32,736 bases of DNA, from assembly GCA_902810715.1 (NCBI GenBank), contig CADDYS010000017.1, forward strand, positions 1 through 32,736, written 5' to 3'. Under the pieces are notes generated by a model that saw only the letters and a program-made list of their open reading frames with translations, had not been told where the DNA came from and made no database searches. The DNA is from a bacterium. Lineage in GTDB: Bacteria > Actinomycetota > Aquicultoria > Aquicultorales > Aquicultoraceae. The translations under genes were made by a program, and so were the position numbers. Of this stretch, positions 8,188-32,131 are shown one piece after another (the first letter of the stretch is position 1; every line of letters begins with the position of its first letter).

Positions 8188-8281
8188 CCATCCGATTTAT
8201 CTGCCTACCGGTTATATCGGTTTTCAATTTTTAGAAAGGGGTAAATCTCAAACTAACGAGTTTTGATTAAGGGGGACTTTG

Positions 8282-10756
8282 ATGGGCGAGTTAGTAAACA
8301 TAAGAAAAAGTGAAAACAACTTTGCAGAAGTCGCCGTAGAAGATTTGCGGCGCGAGTGCGATCCGTCGATATTCAGCTTCTCTTCGACGCAGGAGGTTGA
8401 ACCGCTTAAGGGTACTATCGGGCAAGCTAGAGCCATTGAATCGATTGAGTTTGGACTTGGCATCAAAACCAAAGGCTTTAATATGTATATCGCCGGGCCC
8501 CCTGGGGTTGGCAAGACCTCTACCGTTAAGAAATACATCCAGATGAAAGCAAAAGCCGAGCCCGTTCCCAACGATTGGTGCTATGTGAATAACTTTAGCG
8601 ACCCTGATAGGCCACTTGCGATATCCCTTCCGCCGGGATTGGGTCGTAATTTCGCAAAGGATATGGATGAGGTTCTTGAGCACGCGCGCAGTGAGATACC
8701 AAAGGCATTTGAGAGCAAGGAATACGAGGAGAGAAAGACCCGCATTGCAAACGAGCTTGAGTCCGAACGTGAAAAAGCTTTCTCTGAAATTGAGAAAAAG
8801 GCCGATGAACAAGGATTCGCTGTTGATATAACAACCTCAGGCATAATCACAATACCTTTGGTTAAGGGAAGACCTCTAAGAAGAGAGGAGTTTAACCTGC
8901 TGCCGGAAGACCAGAGAAAGGAAATACAAGGCAAAGGCGAAGAGCTGCAGTCGGAGATAAACGAAGTTCTCACGCGCATAAGAAAGCTCGAGAAGGATAC
9001 CAAAGACAAGATTCAGGGACTGGATAAAGAGGTCGCCCTTTTTGCGATCGGTCACCTATTGCAAGATATGCGCGACAAATACAACGAGTTCCCCAAGGTG
9101 CTGGATTATCTCGACCAGGTCGAGAAGGACATTGTTGACAGCCTTGATGATTTCCGCCCGGGCGAGCGACCGGCGATTGCGATCCCCGGCTTGGAGGCGC
9201 TCCAAAGGCCGTTGAGCTTTGACCGGTATAAGGTAAACGTTATTGTAAACAACAGCGACGTGGAAGGCGCACCGGTTGTAATAGAGCTCAATCCATCTTA
9301 TTACAATCTTGTCGGCAAGACGGAATACAGGGCCCAGTTTGGTGCGATGAGCACCGACTTTACCATGATAAAGTCCGGTGCGCTTCATAGAGCAAATGGC
9401 GGGTATCTCATAATCCACGCGCTCGATATTCTTATCAGCCCCCTGGCCTGGGATGTACTGAAAAGGGCGATAAGAAGCGAAGAGATAAGAATGGAACTAA
9501 TGGGTGAGCAGTACCGGGCAATACCCGCGACTACCATCAAGCCGGAGCCGATACCGCTTAACATCAAGATTGTGCTTATTGGAAATCCGTATATCTACAT
9601 GCTCCTATACAACATGGATGAGGATTTTAGAGAGCTCTTCAAAGTTAAGGCGGACTTCAACGTCGAGATGGACAGAACCGACGAGCATGTCGAGAAGTAT
9701 GCATCCTTCATCAGTGAGTTGATCGATGCGGCCAAGCTTAAGCACTTTGACCCATCGGGTGTGGCGAGGATAGTCGAGTACGGCTCCTGGCTGGCGGGGG
9801 ATCAGAAAAAGCTCTCCACGAGGTTCATGGATATCGGAGATATGGTAAGCGAGGCGAGCTACTGGGCGAGTACGGATAGCGCCGAGTTCGTATCGGCAAA
9901 GCACGTCGATCAGGCGGAGGGTCACAAGAAATTCCGCTCGAATATGATCGAGGCGAAGATACAGGAGATGATCGAGCGCGGCATGATTTTAATTCAGACC
10001 GAAGGCAAGATCGTCGGCCAGATAAACGCGCTCTCCATCATAAGTCTCGGTGATTACTACTTTGGGCAGCCATCAAGGATAACGGCCAAGATCCACCTGG
10101 GCAGAAAAGGTGTAATCAACATCGAGCGGGAGATTCGCCAAAGCGGACCGTCGCACAGTAAGGGCGTGCTAATCCTATCTAACTACCTTGCAGGGATGTA
10201 TGCGGAAGATAAGCCGCTCTCTGTTTCAGCCAGCCTGACTTTTGAGCAAAATTATACGGGAGTTGACGGCGATAGTGCTTCGAGCACCGAGCTTTACGCA
10301 CTTCTCTCCGCGCTGTCCGGAATCCCGATTAAGCAGAACTTCGCGGTAACCGGCTCGGTCAACCAGCGCGGTGAAATTCAGCCAATCGGCGGAGTCAACC
10401 GCAAGATAGAGGGGTTTTTCGATATCTGTAAGGCAAGAGGCCTAACGGGGGACCAGGGGGTCTTGATTCCACACCAAAATGTCGTAAATCTCATGCTGAA
10501 GCAAGAGGTGGTCGATGCCGTGAAAGAAGGCAAGTTCCGTATCTATCCGGTTAAAACCATCGATGAGGGCATTGAGATACTTACCGGAGTTGTTCCTGGC
10601 GAGCGCCGTGAGGACGGCACATTCCCAGAAGGCACAGTACACTACCTGGTCAACGAGAAATTAAAGAAGATGGCCGACCTTCTCAAAGAGTATGAGGCGC
10701 CCGAGATTGAAGAAGAGGAAGAGGAGGAGAGCGGAGAAGCGGCACAACCATTATAA
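8282..10756 (+). CDS. Lon-like ATP-dependent protease (AAA_32 family)
   Basis: This 824-aa protein combines an AAA+ module with a C-terminal Lon peptidase domain, as in the AAA_32/LonB-like family found in anaerobes. Walker A GPPGVGKTS lies at about residues 72-80. An inserted, strongly charged coiled-coil region (about 130-270) separates the AAA halves. The catalytic dyad is Ser665 (GDSASS) and Lys708 (NRKIEGF); the 43-residue spacing matches canonical Lon. The tail is acidic (EEEEEEESGE). There is no membrane segment, so it should be cytosolic. A TTG directly precedes the ATG. I chose ATG 8282, 6 nt after AAGGGGG. An intrinsic terminator follows. Confidence 0.92.
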   Translation: MGELVNIRKSENNFAEVAVEDLRRECDPSIFSFSSTQEVEPLKGTIGQARAIESIEFGLGIKTKGFNMYIAGPPGVGKTSTVKKYIQMKAKAEPVPNDWCYVNNFSDPDRPLAISLPPGLGRNFAKDMDEVLEHARSEIPKAFESKEYEERKTRIANELESEREKAFSEIEKKADEQGFAVDITTSGIITIPLVKGRPLRREEFNLLPEDQRKEIQGKGEELQSEINEVLTRIRKLEKDTKDKIQGLDKEVALFAIGHLLQDMRDKYNEFPKVLDYLDQVEKDIVDSLDDFRPGERPAIAIPGLEALQRPLSFDRYKVNVIVNNSDVEGAPVVIELNPSYYNLVGKTEYRAQFGAMSTDFTMIKSGALHRANGGYLIIHALDILISPLAWDVLKRAIRSEEIRMELMGEQYRAIPATTIKPEPIPLNIKIVLIGNPYIYMLLYNMDEDFRELFKVKADFNVEMDRTDEHVEKYASFISELIDAAKLKHFDPSGVARIVEYGSWLAGDQKKLSTRFMDIGDMVSEASYWASTDSAEFVSAKHVDQAEGHKKFRSNMIEAKIQEMIERGMILIQTEGKIVGQINALSIISLGDYYFGQPSRITAKIHLGRKGVINIEREIRQSGPSHSKGVLILSNYLAGMYAEDKPLSVSASLTFEQNYTGVDGDSASSTELYALLSALSGIPIKQNFAVTGSVNQRGEIQPIGGVNRKIEGFFDICKARGLTGDQGVLIPHQNVVNLMLKQEVVDAVKEGKFRIYPVKTIDEGIEILTGVVPGERREDGTFPEGTVHYLVNEKLKKMADLLKEYEAPEIEEEEEEESGEAAQPL

Positions 10757-10783: not shown

Positions 10784-11441
10784 ATGCGGCCGCTTTTACT
10801 GTTAACTCGTTTATTACATCTCTAACTCCGGGTGTCCACCAGGCGATATCAGAGGCGATCCACTTTTGTGTGTAGTCGCTTACCGTTCCTCTCAAGTAGA
10901 CGATCGCATCGGTAACGTCAACGTCGATGTTTCCCATGTCAATTCTGGTATCCCTTGCAAGACTTGCAACCACATCCTCCCGGATATCCTGATCCATCCT
11001 TTCAACCGCCGGCGTAACGACGATGTTGTTTATCACATCGGTTACTCCGGGAGTCAACCAGGCATCACTCTCCGCGGCGTTTTTCTCCGCCATGGTGGGA
11101 ATCGAGCCGCTCAAGACTACTATCCCGTTAGCGACCCGTGCCACAATATTTGCCTCATCAACAAGTACGTCGCGACGTAGCGCGCCGTAGATGTCGTCCT
11201 GTATCTCTTGGTCAGATCTAATGATAGCCGGCCTTACGACAAGGTTGTTTATTACATCGACCACTCCCTTTATACGGCTTGCTATTTGGGAGGCATCGAG
11301 CTTTTGCGTGTAAGTATCAACCGTACCGCTTAGAGTCACCACTCCGCCTACAACATCAACGTCTATATTTGCGGCGTTAACTCTTACATCCCATGTAAGA
11401 GCATCCTGCACATCAGACAATATCTCTTGATCGCTTGGCAT
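10782..11441 (-). CDS. triple BON-domain protein
   Basis: The 219 aa form three tandem BON repeats of about 70 residues (about 3-70, 75-143, 148-216). Each runs from a D-Q-E-I-x-D-D-V-like helix through GxVxLSGxV to the helix ending GVxDVINxLxV. BON domains bind phospholipid or act as stress-related adaptors (OsmY, Kbp/YgaU). No signal peptide or lipobox is visible, so the protein is predicted cytoplasmic, unlike OsmY. The start has GGAG in front. The repeat units are close in sequence, which suggests internal duplication. The exact function is unknown. Confidence 0.85.
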   Translation of the reverse strand: MPSDQEILSDVQDALTWDVRVNAANIDVDVVGGVVTLSGTVDTYTQKLDASQIASRIKGVVDVINNLVVRPAIIRSDQEIQDDIYGALRRDVLVDEANIVARVANGIVVLSGSIPTMAEKNAAESDAWLTPGVTDVINNIVVTPAVERMDQDIREDVVASLARDTRIDMGNIDVDVTDAIVYLRGTVSDYTQKWIASDIAWWTPGVRDVINELTVKAAA

Positions 11442-11767
11442 CTTAGGCTCCTTTCACTACAGATAAAGTTAGATATAACTTTTTACTACCCGCCAGGACT
11501 AAAAAATCACCAAATCGGTGAATCGGAATAAATTAGGGGACCAGGGATAGAAGTAATTAAAAATTGTAAACCTATTACTATCGCGTGGTTGACAATTAAC
11601 ATACCATGTAGTTGCCCCATTTATGGGGCGGTGTAGCATTTATTTATCCCTGGCCCTGTCCTCTGAATCCTAACACCGGCTCCTGTATTTTGCTATAATT
11701 TAGGTTTGAACTGCAAATAGCTCATGACTATGAGCGTTCAATCCATTTAATAATTCTGAGGTGTGTT
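11442..11767. repeat. intergenic region with REP-like inverted repeat
   Basis: No gene is seen in these 326 bp. Arms GGGACCAGGGATA (11537-11549) and TATCCCTGGCCC (11645-11656) are near-complementary. They enclose a perfect hairpin GCCCCAT-TT-ATGGGGC (11614-11629). Another small inverted repeat, AAAGTTA-gata-TAACTTT (11465-11482), lies in the BON leader. The arms resemble the GGGACAGGG-type ends of palindromic elements mobilised by Y1 transposases, but no transposase is present. Confidence 0.5.
11691..11699 (+). promoter_or_regulatory. extended -10 promoter of the DUF362 gene
   Basis: TGC-TATAAT forms an extended -10 (TGnTATAAT). There is no good -35 at 17 bp. It lies about 70 bp before the gene, and GAGGTG precedes the ATG. 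Confidence 0.55.
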
Positions 11768-26679: not shown

Positions 26680-27342
26680 ATGGAAGTAGCCGAACTTAAA
26701 GCTGAAAAGCGTGAAGTGTCAGGAAAAGAAATAAGCAAGAAACTTAGGCGACAGGGAAAAATTCCGGCGGTTATGTACAGTGATGGCGATGCGACGCCGC
26801 TCTCTGTAGACGCGCGCGAATTTGCATCACTCATCCACTCCGGTGCGGGGACGCACATTATTGTTAAGCTAAAATTTCCGGGGGCCAAAAAGCATCCGAA
26901 TGCCGTCATTAAGGCGGTTCAGAGAAACCCGGTACGCGACGAGTTCTTCAACGTCGATTTTCAAAGGATAGCACTTGACGAGAAGATTGCCGCGATGGTG
27001 CCGATACATATGGTTGGCGAATCGCCCGGCACCAAAGAAGGAGGCGTTCTTGAACGCCACCTTGGTGAAATTGAGGTTGAGGGGATGCCTACCGAGATGC
27101 CGGATCACATTGAGGTGGATGTAAGCGGACTTGGTATCGGCGAGAGCATCCATGCAAGCGATCTCAAGATTCCCGATGAGATTGTTATGCTGACCGACCC
27201 CGAGGCGGTTATTCTTGCAATCACGGTGCCGCGTGCTGCTGCGGCGGCCGCAGAAGAAGCCGTCGAGGGAATTGCGCCTGAGTCGGTTGAAGGCGGCGGC
27301 GAGGCCGCAGCCAAAGAGGCTGCTGAAGAGGCGGGAGAATAA
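26680..27342 (+). CDS. rplY: 50S ribosomal protein L25 / general stress protein Ctc
   Basis: A 220-aa L25 of the long TL5/CTC type, which binds 5S rRNA. The N-terminal L25 domain (about residues 1-95) shows LKAEKREVSGKEISKKLRR and IPAVMYSDGD. The C-terminal beta domain (about 100-185) includes VDVSGLGIGESIHASDL. A low-complexity Ala/Glu tail (about 190-220) follows. I chose ATG 26680, 10 nt after GAGGAG; an upstream in-frame ATG at 26638 lies inside the repeat. A 42-bp internal piece (26832-26873) is duplicated at 30838. A strong terminator follows. Confidence 0.94.
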   Translation: MEVAELKAEKREVSGKEISKKLRRQGKIPAVMYSDGDATPLSVDAREFASLIHSGAGTHIIVKLKFPGAKKHPNAVIKAVQRNPVRDEFFNVDFQRIALDEKIAAMVPIHMVGESPGTKEGGVLERHLGEIEVEGMPTEMPDHIEVDVSGLGIGESIHASDLKIPDEIVMLTDPEAVILAITVPRAAAAAAEEAVEGIAPESVEGGGEAAAKEAAEEAGE

Positions 27343-27354
27343 AGTTGATAACCT

Positions 27355-27384
27355 GGGCGCAAGGTCTGCTTGCGCCCTTTTTTT
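27355..27384 (+). terminator. intrinsic terminator after rplY
   Basis: GGGCGCAAG (27355-27363), loop GTCTG, CTTGCGCCC (27369-27377), then seven T. The pth ATG lies 25 bp further on. Confidence 0.95.
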
Positions 27385-27409
27385 ATAACTTTTTAGGCGG
27401 ACCAATAGG

Positions 27410-27994
27410 ATGTATCTAGTCGTTGGATTGGGGAACCCGGGAGTTGAATACGAGCGTACACGCCACAATGTGGGCTTTATGGTAATCGACAAACTTTCGC
27501 AGGTGCACGGTATAAAACTTAGTATGAAAAGCCACTCCGCCCGCTGGGGGCAGGGAAAGGTCGATAGCGAGACCGTTCTACTGGCTGAGCCGATGACTTA
27601 TATGAACGAGAGTGGTGTTGCGGTAAAGGCTCTCTTAAAAGACAAGAACGTTGCCCCGGAACATCTCATTGTAATTTATGACGACCTAGATCTTGAACCG
27701 GGTCGGATAAGGGTGCGCGTAGACGGCGGAAGCGGTGGACACAAAGGCATCAAGTCCATCATCTCCCAAATCGGCACCGAAGGATTTATAAGGATTCGCG
27801 TTGGGATTGGTAGACCCCCGGGCCGCCAAGACCCGGCAGATTATGTCTTAATGCCGTTTTCAAAGGACCAGCGCGAGGAAATCAACTTTGCTATTGTAAA
27901 GGCCGCCGATGCGGTAGACTATATTATCGCAAACGGCGCAGAGCGCGCAATGAACGAGTTTAATCGTAAGAACGGTGAGATTGAGCAGCCCTAG
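27410..27994 (+). CDS. pth: peptidyl-tRNA hydrolase
   Basis: This enzyme releases peptides from peptidyl-tRNA that has dropped off ribosomes. The 194-aa protein has VVGLGNPGVEYERTRHNVGF (N9, catalytic His19), EPMTYMNESG, IVIYDDLDLEPG with the catalytic Asp at about 93, and GGSGGHKGIKSI. It corresponds to spoVC, the last gene of the conserved block. The ribosome-binding site is weak (AGG). Because a terminator lies just upstream, either readthrough or an unrecognised promoter drives it. Confidence 0.95.
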   Translation: MYLVVGLGNPGVEYERTRHNVGFMVIDKLSQVHGIKLSMKSHSARWGQGKVDSETVLLAEPMTYMNESGVAVKALLKDKNVAPEHLIVIYDDLDLEPGRIRVRVDGGSGGHKGIKSIISQIGTEGFIRIRVGIGRPPGRQDPADYVLMPFSKDQREEINFAIVKAADAVDYIIANGAERAMNEFNRKNGEIEQP

Positions 27995-28149
27995 CACCTA
28001 CTATATGTACGACCTCAAAGATCGGGTTGTGAAAGCAAAGTCAAGTGTTGGTCTAATTATTTGAATAAATGTAGCCGCCCGATTTAACAGGCTAAAGGAT
28101 ATTTTAGGGACTTCACGAGAGATTCGAATCCTTCCACCCAACAGCATTT
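27995..28149. other. intergenic junction with tRNA-3'-end-like segment
   Basis: No gene seen. At about 28105-28133, GAGATTCGAATCCTTCCACC resembles a tRNA T-arm plus acceptor end, but the T-stem pairs poorly (A.C mismatches) and no matching 5' half is found. It lies at the border between the conserved block and the accessory zone, so a degenerate attachment site is possible. Confidence 0.25.
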
Positions 28150-28185
28150 GCCCTTGTGAAAATGGCTTTCGCAAGGGCTTTTTTT
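28150..28185 (+). terminator. strong intrinsic terminator
   Basis: A 12-bp stem GCCCTTGTGAAA (28150-28161) / TTTCGCAAGGGC (28167-28178), with one G.U pair and loop ATGGC, is followed by seven T. It probably ends the pth transcript or a small RNA from the preceding gap. Confidence 0.9.
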
Positions 28186-28280
28186 GTGGAAAAGTTGAGA
28201 GGTGAGAGGACTCTAACTTTTTCTGCGGACCCTTCTGGTATAGATATACGATGCATATTTTTCAACTATTTAGCACTAAA

Positions 28281-28310
28281 CCACCTGGTATAGGCTATAC
28301 TACCCGGTGG
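28281..28310. promoter_or_regulatory. imperfect 30-bp palindrome
   Basis: CCACCTGGTATAG (28281-28293) and CTATACTACCCGGTGG (28295-28310) form a near-palindrome. A partial copy, CTGGTATAGATATAC, lies about 50 bp upstream (28230-28246). The region 28186-28379 has no gene. These may be operator sites. Confidence 0.4.
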
Positions 28311-28379
28311 CCAATCAGTATTCTACTTAACAATCTGTTGATTCCTGACAATTGGTATCAAAACTAATCTTTAAAGCAG

Positions 28380-28419
28380 CGGTTTACAATCCGATATAAT
28401 TATTATAATATGTAAACCG
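28380..28419 (+). promoter_or_regulatory. promoter/operator of the XRE-ImmA gene
   Basis: A perfect 9-bp inverted repeat, CGGTTTACA (28380-28388) and TGTAAACCG (28411-28419), brackets the AT-rich -10 region. TTTACA in the left arm can serve as -35 with TAATAT (28406-28411, 17 bp) or TATAAT (28404-28409, 15 bp). The placement fits autorepression by the XRE protein. Confidence 0.7.
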
Positions 28420-28432
28420 AGGGGGTTTATTT

Positions 28433-29497
28433 ATGGCACTTAGCGATCGTATAAAACAGGCGCGATTAGCTTCTGGCGTTAGTTTACGCGCTTTATCATC
28501 AAAAGTCGGCGTTAGCGCACAAGCAATTTCGAAATATGAGCGAGGTCTTGATGTACCTAGCTCGGGTGTGCTTATTCGGCTTGCTCAAGCTTTAGGTGTG
28601 AAGGTTGAATTCTTCTTTAGGCCTACTCATGCCGTGGTGACCGGCCTTGCCTATCGCAAGCATCCCTTTTTAGGCGCAAAGGATCAAAAAGTAATACAAG
28701 CTCGAGTACAAGAGTGGTTAGATAGGTACCTTGAAATTGAGAGCATATTTCCAAGTGATTTAAATGGTTTTGCCTTACCAACTAATATAAATCGATATCC
28801 AGAATCTCTAGATGATGTTGAACGAATAGCAATAAGCTTGCGTAAAGAATGGGGTATGGGTCTTGGTCCAATAGAGAATATGATTGATCTATTTGAGGCT
28901 CGGGGAATAAAAGTTGGTCTGATAGAAGCAGTTAGCGGATTTGATGCCTGTACTTTTTTAATTGATGAAGGCGCTCCTGTTATAGGGATAAGGAGGGACT
29001 TACCCGGTGACCGCCAGCGATTTAGTCTTGCCCATGAACTGGGGCATATAATATTAGAGCCTGGAGACAATCACAACATTGAGGCAGTGGTTGATCGCTT
29101 TGCAGGCGCCTTTATTGCGCCTGCGTCAACTGTTCGATATGAGTTAGGCAATAAAAGGAAGGAACTCACTTTATACGAACTCCATGTTCTTAAGCATAGG
29201 TATGGATTAAGCATGCAAGGCTGGATTCACCGTGCTCAGGATCTCGATATTATATCTGGATTAACCGCGAAGCGGTTGTTCCAGCAGTTTGAGGATTGCG
29301 GCTGGACAAAAGACGAACCGGGCGATCACCTAGCATCAGAGATTTCATGGCATATGGAGAGTTTGATTCTTCGTGCCGTAACTGAGAATGTTATCTCAGC
29401 GACGCGTGCGTCCGAATTGCTAGGGAAACCTTTAGAAGAATTTTGGCGTGAAGTCAAAGAAAAGCACAAGGGACTGCCGGTAGTTGCTAGTATTTGA
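28433..29497 (+). CDS. XRE-family regulator fused to ImmA/IrrE metallopeptidase
   Basis: A 354-aa protein with an N-terminal helix-turn-helix (about residues 3-60: IKQARLASGVSLRALSSKVG, SAQAISKYERG). A DUF955/ImmA-IrrE peptidase domain follows (about 150-260) with zinc motif LAHELGHII (HExxH, about 202-210) and a downstream EAVVDRFAGAF helix. In ImmA-type systems the peptidase cleaves a repressor to induce mobile-element or stress genes. Here both parts are in one chain, as in the COG2856 family. It overlaps the PIN-domain gene by 14 bp. The start follows GAGGGGG. Confidence 0.88.
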   Translation: MALSDRIKQARLASGVSLRALSSKVGVSAQAISKYERGLDVPSSGVLIRLAQALGVKVEFFFRPTHAVVTGLAYRKHPFLGAKDQKVIQARVQEWLDRYLEIESIFPSDLNGFALPTNINRYPESLDDVERIAISLRKEWGMGLGPIENMIDLFEARGIKVGLIEAVSGFDACTFLIDEGAPVIGIRRDLPGDRQRFSLAHELGHIILEPGDNHNIEAVVDRFAGAFIAPASTVRYELGNKRKELTLYELHVLKHRYGLSMQGWIHRAQDLDIISGLTAKRLFQQFEDCGWTKDEPGDHLASEISWHMESLILRAVTENVISATRASELLGKPLEEFWREVKEKHKGLPVVASI

Positions 29498-29981
29498 TAC
29501 CAATGTATTAATGGATCTTCATAAGGGTTATCTATTATCCAAAGCCGACAGCTTACCTTACCAACTGATTGTACCTGATGTGATCGCGGTCGAAATTGAA
29601 GATCTCACCGGTGGTGAGCTAAATGGAGCTGAGTTACCCAAACTCGGGTTTGTCATAAATGAGCTACCTGGCAAATACATGCAGGAGGTCGAAACGTTAA
29701 GACAGCTATACGTGTACCCTGGTACCAATGATCTTTTTGCATTAGTATTGGCAAGAGTTATGGGCGTCATTCTGATGACCAAAGATCGGGATTTGGTAAA
29801 TGCTGCAAATAATGAAGGGATTCCATGTTATGGTATTCTATGGCTTTTGAAAGAGATGGAACGGCATGGGATCGTGCATCCCGTAGTGCTAGCACAAGGT
29901 TTAGTGCATATGCGAGCAGCCGTCAGGAAACTACCCAAGGAGGAATGCGAGGAATTAATTAAGCGATGGGAGCGATTCTAG
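29484..29981 (+). CDS. PIN-domain protein, partner of the XRE-ImmA gene
   Basis: A 165-aa PIN-like nuclease candidate. Acidic residues sit in FDTNVLMD (residues 4-11), VEIEDL (about 35-40) and MTKDRDLVNA (about 93-102), the usual places for the Mg-binding site. The gene starts at TTG inside the end of the XRE-ImmA gene with AAGGGA about 10 nt upstream, so translation is coupled. The pair fits a toxin-antitoxin-like or mobile-element regulatory module (inference). Confidence 0.75.
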   Translation: MLVFDTNVLMDLHKGYLLSKADSLPYQLIVPDVIAVEIEDLTGGELNGAELPKLGFVINELPGKYMQEVETLRQLYVYPGTNDLFALVLARVMGVILMTKDRDLVNAANNEGIPCYGILWLLKEMERHGIVHPVVLAQGLVHMRAAVRKLPKEECEELIKRWERF

Positions 29982-30063
29982 GGTTACGCTACTACTTTCA
30001 AATATTAACAAGAAAGGGTGCCAGGCTTGCAAGATTGCACGTTAGGCATATTGAGGTAAAGAC

Positions 30064-30360
30064 ATGAGTTGGATCACGGCACTAGAATCATCAGGGCACA
30101 TTACCGAGGCCGTAAGCCATTTTAATCAGGCCATTGGTGGCTTGGAAACCGGAGGGTCAAGGGTTGAAGTTTCTCGCTATCTCTTCGATGCCCTAAATAA
30201 GATTCAGACGGAGTGGCGGATGCTTCACAATCAGCATGCGTTGGGCGAGGTTAAAGCCTTTCAGACAATGATCCTGGAGGGATTGGATACAGAAGACCGT
30301 ATTAAGTTCTTAGAGAGTGATGAGATTAGAAATCTTGTTTTTTCGAGCCTCAGATCATGA
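30064..30360 (+). CDS. hypothetical protein, partner of HEPN-like gene
   Basis: A 98-aa mostly helical protein that I do not recognise. GAGGT precedes the ATG. Its stop overlaps the next gene's start (ATGA), so the two are translationally coupled. A canonical integron-type simple site sequence, GTTAGGC, lies at 30041-30047, 17 nt before the ATG, although no matching attC arm is visible upstream. Role unknown; it could be an antitoxin-like partner. Confidence 0.6.
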   Translation: MSWITALESSGHITEAVSHFNQAIGGLETGGSRVEVSRYLFDALNKIQTEWRMLHNQHALGEVKAFQTMILEGLDTEDRIKFLESDEIRNLVFSSLRS

Positions 30361-30800
30361 ATCACGACACCTTACTGCGGGATCAATACAGACCAGATCA
30401 GGAGATAGAACCACGGTTAGTCAAGAAAGCATCCGAAGAACATCATAAATCTGTTAACGCCTATAACACGTATCTTTCTCAGAAAAATGATGAAGCTAAA
30501 GAATGTGTAATGAAACGAGTGGCGGAACTGCTATACATTGTCCGTTCAAACATTGCCCATGGGGGAAAAACTCCATACGGACCAGACCTTAAGAAAAAAG
30601 AACGTGACGAGGAAGTTTGCAAAGTAGTTATGCCGCTCCAGCGGCTGTTATTGAATATATTGTTTGATTATCCAGATCATAAATTGGTTGTATATGGAAC
30701 CTTGGCTCCTGGTAATGTGAATCATGACATACTCTCCGATCTTCAAGGCGTTTGGGAGGACTGTATAGTAAAATTATCTCCTCCTTATCTCCGAGAATGA
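30357..30800 (+). CDS. HEPN-like protein with truncated gamma-glutamylcyclotransferase-like tail
   Basis: A 147-aa protein. The middle part holds VRSNIAHGGKTPYGPD (about residues 62-77), containing R-x4-H, the catalytic motif of HEPN ribonucleases. From about residue 106 the sequence KLVVYGTLAPGNVNHDIL matches the start of the AIG2/GGCT cyclotransferase fold (VYGTLxPG). It then ends after 40 residues, where that domain would need roughly 80 more. The tail is probably truncated. The following 38 bp lead into a stray rplY fragment, so a rearrangement may have cut the gene. Confidence 0.6.
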   Translation: MNHDTLLRDQYRPDQEIEPRLVKKASEEHHKSVNAYNTYLSQKNDEAKECVMKRVAELLYIVRSNIAHGGKTPYGPDLKKKERDEEVCKVVMPLQRLLLNILFDYPDHKLVVYGTLAPGNVNHDILSDLQGVWEDCIVKLSPPYLRE

Positions 30801-30837
30801 TCGGCTAGCATTGGTGTTAGTTGATCAAAATATCTTC

Positions 30838-30879
30838 CATCCACTCCGGTGCGAGGACGCACATTATTGTTAAGCTAAA
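30838..30879 (+). pseudogene. 42-bp stray copy of internal rplY sequence
   Basis: 41 of 42 bases match 26832-26873 inside rplY (one G-to-A at 30854). The similarity ends abruptly on both sides. Just after it, CCAATAGGAcGT (from about 30887) resembles the pth ribosome-binding region CCAATAGGAtGT (from about 27401). Confidence 0.85.
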
Positions 30880-30904
30880 TAGTGTGCCAATAGGACGTTT
30901 GGAT

Positions 30905-30921
30905 CCGGTGACAGTCACCGG
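30905..30921. repeat. CCGGTGAC-a-GTCACCGG palindrome
   Basis: A perfect 17-nt palindrome with no T-run. The gap 30801-31036 otherwise has the rplY fragment, a repeat of TTGTTAAGCTA (30867-30877 and 30950-30960), and no gene. Confidence 0.6.
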
Positions 30922-31036
30922 CCAAAAGCTGCCGCGCCCCTTAGCTTGGTTGTTAAGCTATCACTATAGTTCACCATAATACGAACTCGAAAGTATCCGC
31001 AATAAGCCAGATATTATCCAAAATTTGAAACCACAT

Positions 31037-31065
31037 TTGACAGTAATAACGCATAACGTTATTAT
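31037..31065 (+). promoter_or_regulatory. higBA promoter with palindromic operator, leaderless
   Basis: TTGACA (31037-31042), 17 bp, TATTAT (31060-31065). A perfect 8-bp inverted repeat, TAATAACG (31044-31051) and CGTTATTA (31057-31064), overlaps the -10. The higB ATG is at 31072, where transcription should begin, so there is no 5' leader. Confidence 0.75.
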
Positions 31066-31071
31066 CTGGTT

Positions 31072-31353
31072 ATGATAAAAAGCTTCCGCTGTAAAGAGAC
31101 CGAGAAGATATTTGAGCGCCAATTCGTAAAGAAATTCTCTGTAGATATACAGCGCTTAGTTTACCGAAAGCTTGTATTACTAGATTCTGCCGAGAGATTG
31201 GATGACCTTAAAGTACCGCCCGGCAACCGTCTCGAGAGGCTTTCAGGCAACAGGCAAGGACAACACAGCATTCGGGTCAACGAACAATGGCGCATTTGCT
31301 TCAAATGGAGTGCAGGTGACGTTTATGAAGTCGAGATTACGGATTATCATTAG
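31072..31353 (+). CDS. higB: HigB/RelE-family mRNA interferase toxin
   Basis: A 93-aa type II toxin of the HigB (plasmid maintenance killer, RelE superfamily) family. The family pattern is visible: MIKSFRCKETEKIF, LVYRKLVLLDSAERLDDLKVPPGNRLE (short parts at about residues 30-56), the SIRVNEQWRICFKW strand (about 66-79) and the terminal EVEITDYH. HigB toxins cut mRNA at the ribosome. The gene precedes its antitoxin by 9 bp, the reversed order typical of hig loci. It starts at the predicted transcription start without a ribosome-binding site. Confidence 0.92.
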   Translation: MIKSFRCKETEKIFERQFVKKFSVDIQRLVYRKLVLLDSAERLDDLKVPPGNRLERLSGNRQGQHSIRVNEQWRICFKWSAGDVYEVEITDYH

Positions 31354-31362
31354 GAGGAGATT

Positions 31363-31677
31363 ATGAGCAACAAAAAAATAGAACCTATTCACCCAGGCGA
31401 AATATTGCTTGAAGAATTTCTCAAACCAATGGGAATCAGTCAATATCGTTTGGCCAAGGATATTAATGTACCGGCACGCCGTATAAATGAGATTATTCAC
31501 GGTAAGCGATCAGTTAGCGTAGATACAGCCCTGAGATTGTCTCGATATTTTAGTCTATCTGAGCGTTTCTGGCTTAATCTCCAGACACGCTACGATATCG
31601 AGCTACAGAAGGATAAGCTAGACAAACGTATCAAGGAAGAGGTTAAAGTCCTCGCGACAGAAAAGCATAGCGCCTAA
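31363..31677 (+). CDS. higA: HigA-family antitoxin
   Basis: A 104-aa XRE-type antitoxin and autorepressor. It has the HigA signature PIHPGEILLEEFLKPMG (about residues 8-24). The helix-turn-helix ISQYRLAKDINVPARRINEIIHGKR (parts, 25-49) follows, then TALRLSRYFSLSERFWLNLQ. AGGAGG precedes the ATG. The stop codon lies within the left core site of an attC-like element, as is common for integron cassettes. Confidence 0.93.
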   Translation: MSNKKIEPIHPGEILLEEFLKPMGISQYRLAKDINVPARRINEIIHGKRSVSVDTALRLSRYFSLSERFWLNLQTRYDIELQKDKLDKRIKEEVKVLATEKHSA

Positions 31678-31800
31678 CAAATCACTGCAGTGGACGGCGG
31701 ATTTCGGGGCGCTCTTGTAAGTCTTATTTGCTTGCTTAATTATTTCTGTTGCCATGTCGCTAACGGCTTACTCCGCCCCCACTGAGCCGGAACGTTATGC
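31672..31800 (+). mobile_element. integron attC-like recombination site
   Basis: GCCTAAC (31672-31678, RYYYAAC) and GTTATGC (31794-31800, complementary but for one base) form the outer core sites. Inside, CAGTGG pairs with CCACTG and GGCGGA with TCCGCC, with an unpaired A and a C.C mismatch between the helices. GTAAGTC pairs with GGCTTAC further in. The 129-bp length is that of VCR-type attC sites. No integrase gene lies in the window. Confidence 0.6.
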
Positions 31801-31899
31801 GTCTGAAAAATTATAATAGAAAATCTTGATTTTTCGCAAACAAGACCAAATTATTAAATAGCAAAGGATAATTGATAAATTATTTGAGGTGAAAATATA

Positions 31900-32090
31900 A
31901 TGAAAACAATAAAATATTGTTTATTGGGAAGACGAGGGAATGTGGCTTGGTTATCTAGCCGAATATCCTGATTATATGACCCAGGGGGAAACTTGATGAA
32001 TTAAAAGAAAACTTAAAAGATATATATAAGGAATTAACCAGTGGTTCGATTCCGCCAGTTCGTAAAGTTGCTGAGCTGAAAGTCTCGTGA
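31900..32090 (+). pseudogene. decayed HicB-type antitoxin
   Basis: The frames join to a HicB-like sequence: MKTIKY, then WEDEGMWLGYLAEYPDYMTQ, then LDELKENLKDIYKELTSG and VRKVAELKVS. One frameshift lies near 31919-31922 and a second near 32008-32012. GAGGTG precedes the ATG, and the 3' end overlaps hicA by 4 bp as in intact loci. Relics only; no functional antitoxin is expected. Confidence 0.75.
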
Positions 32091-32131
32091 AACGAAAAGA
32101 CTTAATTAAGAAAATCAAGGAAATGGGATAA
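32087..32131 (+). pseudogene. truncated HicA toxin relic
   Basis: GTG overlaps the hicB stop. It encodes MKRKDLIKKIKEMG and then stops. This is the N-terminal helix of HicA; the catalytic His-containing part (GxxHxxY) is missing. Confidence 0.6.

Follow-up and report, generated by a model that had tools for sequence, protein, structure and literature searches.

The question raised by this locus is how 42 bp of a ribosomal protein gene come to lie in an accessory region some 4 kb downstream of that gene. The window, by which we mean the whole stretch of 32,736 nucleotides that was analysed, lies on contig C17 of a 2.43-Mb MAG in 153 contigs, and repeat finding in this window matched positions 30838–30879 to positions 26832–26873 at 41 of 42 positions, in direct orientation and 4006 bp apart. 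At the sole difference rplY has a G (26848) where the copy has an A (30854); translated in the frame of rplY, the A would give Arg in place of Gly, which is compatible with the drift of an unselected copy. The upstream segment lies on the forward strand within an intact rplY gene (bL25, 26680–27342), and because the residues that it encodes align in nine relatives, rplY is taken as the donor and the segment at 30838, also on the forward strand, as the copy. Both rplY and pth are intact and the piece has therefore been copied and not moved, just as the preliminary description of this DNA had claimed. A chance origin of the rplY match is excluded, given that 100 dinucleotide-shuffled versions of the window gave no 42-nt match with three or fewer mismatches.

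The segment is present at these two places only, with no third copy in its own assembly. The exact 42-bp pattern was absent from GTDB genome contigs and a shorter pattern was absent from viral contigs. A dispersed repeat or mobile element was rejected on these grounds, there being no extra copy beyond the one in the genome, in the GTDB contigs or in the viral contigs. In the relatives searched the piece resembles rplY alone (79% over 39 bp to the rplY of G001), and since the copy is near to its own rplY and only 79% identical to that of a congener, the copy is lineage-specific. In the 0.86 Mb of the own genome that were scanned with the same criteria there were six unique short repeats with two copies each, and the rplY copy was the only one of the six with a source recognised as a core gene, which points to a rare, one-off event. 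Two further candidates were also rejected: a CRISPR spacer, for which the flanking direct repeats are absent, and a pair of att sites around 26832–30879, an interval that holds the 3' part of rplY and pth and no integrase-like ORF and is thus not an inserted element.

Both ends of the copy are sharp, in agreement with the first reading of the sequence. On the left the flanks diverge at once, the donor ending in CACT and the copy in CTTC immediately before the match, and on the right the donor continues with ATTTCC and the copy with TAGTGT. Abutting the copy on its right is a 45-bp block (30879–30923, forward strand) that begins at the last base of the copy and that was matched in one other genome among those searched, Candidatus Aquicultor secundus (G007:C30:1239–1283, minus strand, 91% identity; PFFU01000121.1, reached through the GTDB contigs). 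In A. secundus the block comes after a hicA-like gene, behind its stop codon, with no rplY piece present, and therefore the right end of the copy is a real junction. The hicBA homology that A. secundus shares with G021 and G026 stops where the 45-bp block starts, so that the block starts at a junction in that genome too. Taking A. secundus as a proxy for the empty allele, the overlap (microhomology) at the right end is 0–1 bp. The junctions of the copy are taken from one MAG assembly.

A chimeric read or a misjoin could also have put the rplY piece into the accessory zone of a MAG contig, and it is true that this MAG is fragmented and that a multi-copy repeat lies at the end of contig C17. However, the product of a misjoin is not normally an insert of 42 bp that differs from its source by a substitution, and the block to the right of the copy is also bounded by a junction in an independent genome. 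We therefore consider an artefact of the assembly or of the library to be unlikely. The sequence at the contig end (32664–32736) recurs in the genome, on at least seven further contigs, and this multi-copy sequence is the likely cause of the assembly break.

The range 30838–30900, in which the feature was originally placed, spans two unrelated pieces: up to 30879 it is the rplY copy, and the remainder belongs to the block 30879–30923. The preliminary description had noted in this range a 12-bp near match to the start region of pth, and had proposed that a rearrangement or template switch using the rplY–pth region had left a scar here. The near match does exist (27402–27413, one mismatch), but it is at chance level, as the window holds three such places within two mismatches, itself included, when 2.0 are expected. 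It is also contained in the block that A. secundus has without pth. For these two reasons a use of pth is not supported and a link to it was rejected, while the part of the proposal that concerns copied rplY is supported.

To the left of the copy, a HEPN-like ORF with a GGCT (AIG2-like) domain (30357–30800, forward strand) breaks off near residue 139. Its GGCT homology stops there, at about nt 30774, and the copy begins at 30838. The homologue in a relative (L079) extends about 60 residues beyond this point and is recognised as PF06094; the ORF in the window gave no Pfam match. No plasmid homologues of the HEPN/GGCT protein were found, and the neighbouring 98-aa gene has no relative in 39 related genomes. 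It had been suggested that the truncation and the arrival of the rplY piece were linked, and a breakpoint common to both was considered. This was rejected given that the two lie about 60 bp apart and that the stretch between them is not GGCT, the missing domain being readable there in no frame; nor does this stretch have any other match in the own genome. The truncation and the copy are close, they have no breakpoint in common, and a single common event is not shown. The sequence of the immediate left neighbour (30778–30837) does not distinguish an insertion from a replacement.

The donor is intact, the patch is short and was copied once, its ends are sharp and there is almost no microhomology; together these make up the pattern of a templated insertion, and we consider that the 42-bp copy is a short templated insertion with a probability of about 0.68. 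Also in favour is that the recipient zone had already been broken and rearranged. In the decayed cassette DNA that lies downstream of pth, an end stalled or broken during replication or repair would have been briefly extended on rplY 4 kb away, or a short rplY single strand would have been annealed in. The outcome would be a 42-bp stretch of rplY that abuts the neighbouring sequence with an overlap of 0–1 bp at the right end, the donor being kept intact and one substitution having since come to separate donor and copy. Counting against a templated insertion is this same end microhomology, which is less than replication-based template switching often leaves. Ku (PF02735) was not detected in the own genome, which is 98% complete, and classical NHEJ is therefore unlikely; filler from Ku-dependent NHEJ was rejected as a candidate because of the Ku that it requires. 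Overall, the sequences show the copy, its ends, its uniqueness, the intact donor and the right neighbour, whereas how the copy was made, by which pathway, and that it lacks a function are inferred. The scar looks real, is probably neutral or functionless, and is of a kind already known.

To our knowledge, bacteria have seldom provided clean natural cases of a short templated insertion whose core-gene donor can be identified. Short-patch double illegitimate recombination (SPDIR) was reportedly found in Acinetobacter baylyi by Harms et al. in 2016. In SPDIR as in the present case a short segment of the own genome is found at an ectopic site and the source is intact. However, SPDIR usually replaces bases of the recipient and has microhomologies at the ends, whereas here the overlap is 0–1 bp on the right. 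Templated insertion and microhomology-mediated template switching (MMBIR, FoSTeS) are best studied in eukaryotes (for example PMC5120786). They share with our case a short insert copied from a nearby locus and the retention of the donor, but they involve eukaryotic enzymes, for example polymerase theta, that are not expected in the present bacterium. The copy described here lies within integron-like DNA, and the lineage that carries it is actinobacterial (Aquicultor-like) and uncultured, with no Ku detected.

Perhaps the copy has been retained for a function, as a terminator-like hairpin (GTGCG-AGGA-CGCAC), as a decoy of the rplY mRNA, or as part of a chimeric small ORF. Within the segment a weakly T-rich run comes after a hairpin of 5 bp, and the rplY frame (frame 2) stays open into the next block. 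However, the hairpin and terminator scores are near chance, the chimeric ORF has no Pfam match, the copy is absent from every relative searched, and the changes are too few to show selection. A function is thus very improbable. A single event with no visible function changes little, and its main use is to illustrate that even a sharp match of 42 bp does not have to be regulatory.

The zone that received the copy consists of degraded and repeatedly rearranged toxin-antitoxin and integron-cassette DNA, in which a scar under no selection could plausibly persist. It includes a HigBA cassette (31014–31794, forward strand; higB 31072–31353, higA 31363–31677) with the same left boundary as in G008 and G006, and in G008 this cassette directly follows an attC-like end. 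In the window the cassette is closed by an attC-like site (31672–31800, forward strand; GCCTAAC ... GTTATGC) that folds on itself. A relaxed attC scan also yields many core-gene matches (51 in 26.5 kb), and therefore the fold alone does not establish this site, which is assigned from its textbook R boxes and its location where the cassette ends. The own genome carries fragments of the integron integrase gene intI, none of them within the window, and G010 has an intI that is nearly full-length but frameshifted. The setting, although not the finding itself, resembles a degraded chromosomal integron or CALIN array in its HigBA cassette bounded by attC-like sites and in the intI remnants and attI-like elements of the genome and family. 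It differs from such an array in that the window has one clear attC-like site only and no intI, and in that the intI of the genome is decayed. Directly after HigBA, at 31896–32130, a seemingly broken hicBA cassette was read by eye, with a frameshifted hicB-like gene and a very short hicA-like start.

In this setting the integrase IntI might itself have captured the piece, by recombining at a secondary GTT site of rplY (GTTAAGC, near the segment end) and bringing the piece into the cassettes. Such a capture would be in keeping with the attC-like and attI-like sites and the intI fragments in the genome and family, and with the recurrence of an 11-mer, TTGTTAAGCTA, which is found in rplY (26861–26871), in the copy (30867–30877) and again at 30950–30960, 83 bp downstream of the copy and beside a small hairpin. 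This last recurrence may be a coincidence. Moreover, the copy runs about 10 bp beyond the expected G/TT cut, no attC or attC-like fold pairs with the piece, and recombination by cutting and joining would have disrupted the donor unless replication had resolved it. We regard capture by IntI as very improbable. A very speculative idea, which we also hold to be very improbable, is that template switching is promoted by cassette DNA when it folds as a single strand, through hairpins of attC and attI and palindromes near both sides of the copy, and that decayed arrays would in this way gain shards of nearby core genes. Hairpin-forming sequence is found near both sides of the copy, with no z-score passing −2. 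If the idea were true, new cassette junctions could arise through such cassette-promoted template switching.

Across the Aquicultoraceae, and also behind the intI fragments of the own genome, an attI-like element of about 170 bp was observed after the 3' end of intI fragments, with several per genome (G000:C19 (L069) 11323–11489, 8207–8373 and 10367–10467; L068 993–1166 and 4980–5153). Its position after the 3' end implies that intI reads toward the cassettes, as in a reversed-type integron. The attI appears to be duplicated inside the arrays.

The region after pth varies between relatives, with an mfd-like gene in G002 and G004 and other genes in G001 (names from reading translations). The copy could descend from a larger duplication, or from an older arrangement with rplY beside this locus, that deletions have since trimmed, and both this variability and the other broken genes in the zone would fit with such a history. 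However, no other part of rplY or pth can be detected next to the copy, and in no relative searched does rplY lie beside such genes. An ancestral rplY-adjacent arrangement, which the preliminary description had envisaged for related genomes, was not seen. A larger duplication or older arrangement is therefore unlikely.

Other features of the window were observed in the same region. The window contains no tRNA gene, and an Rfam search of it gave two matches only, with E up to 1, both to eukaryotic RNA families and far below the gathering scores. Positions 28118–28218, after pth, resemble a tRNA-Pro 3' end and its downstream terminator (78% to the neighbourhood of tRNA-Pro(TGG) in G000:C41), and this is perhaps an old attachment site. 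At 28433–29981, a gene for an XRE and ImmA/IrrE-peptidase (PF06114) protein overlaps a PIN-like gene, and the two resemble a toxin-antitoxin pair.
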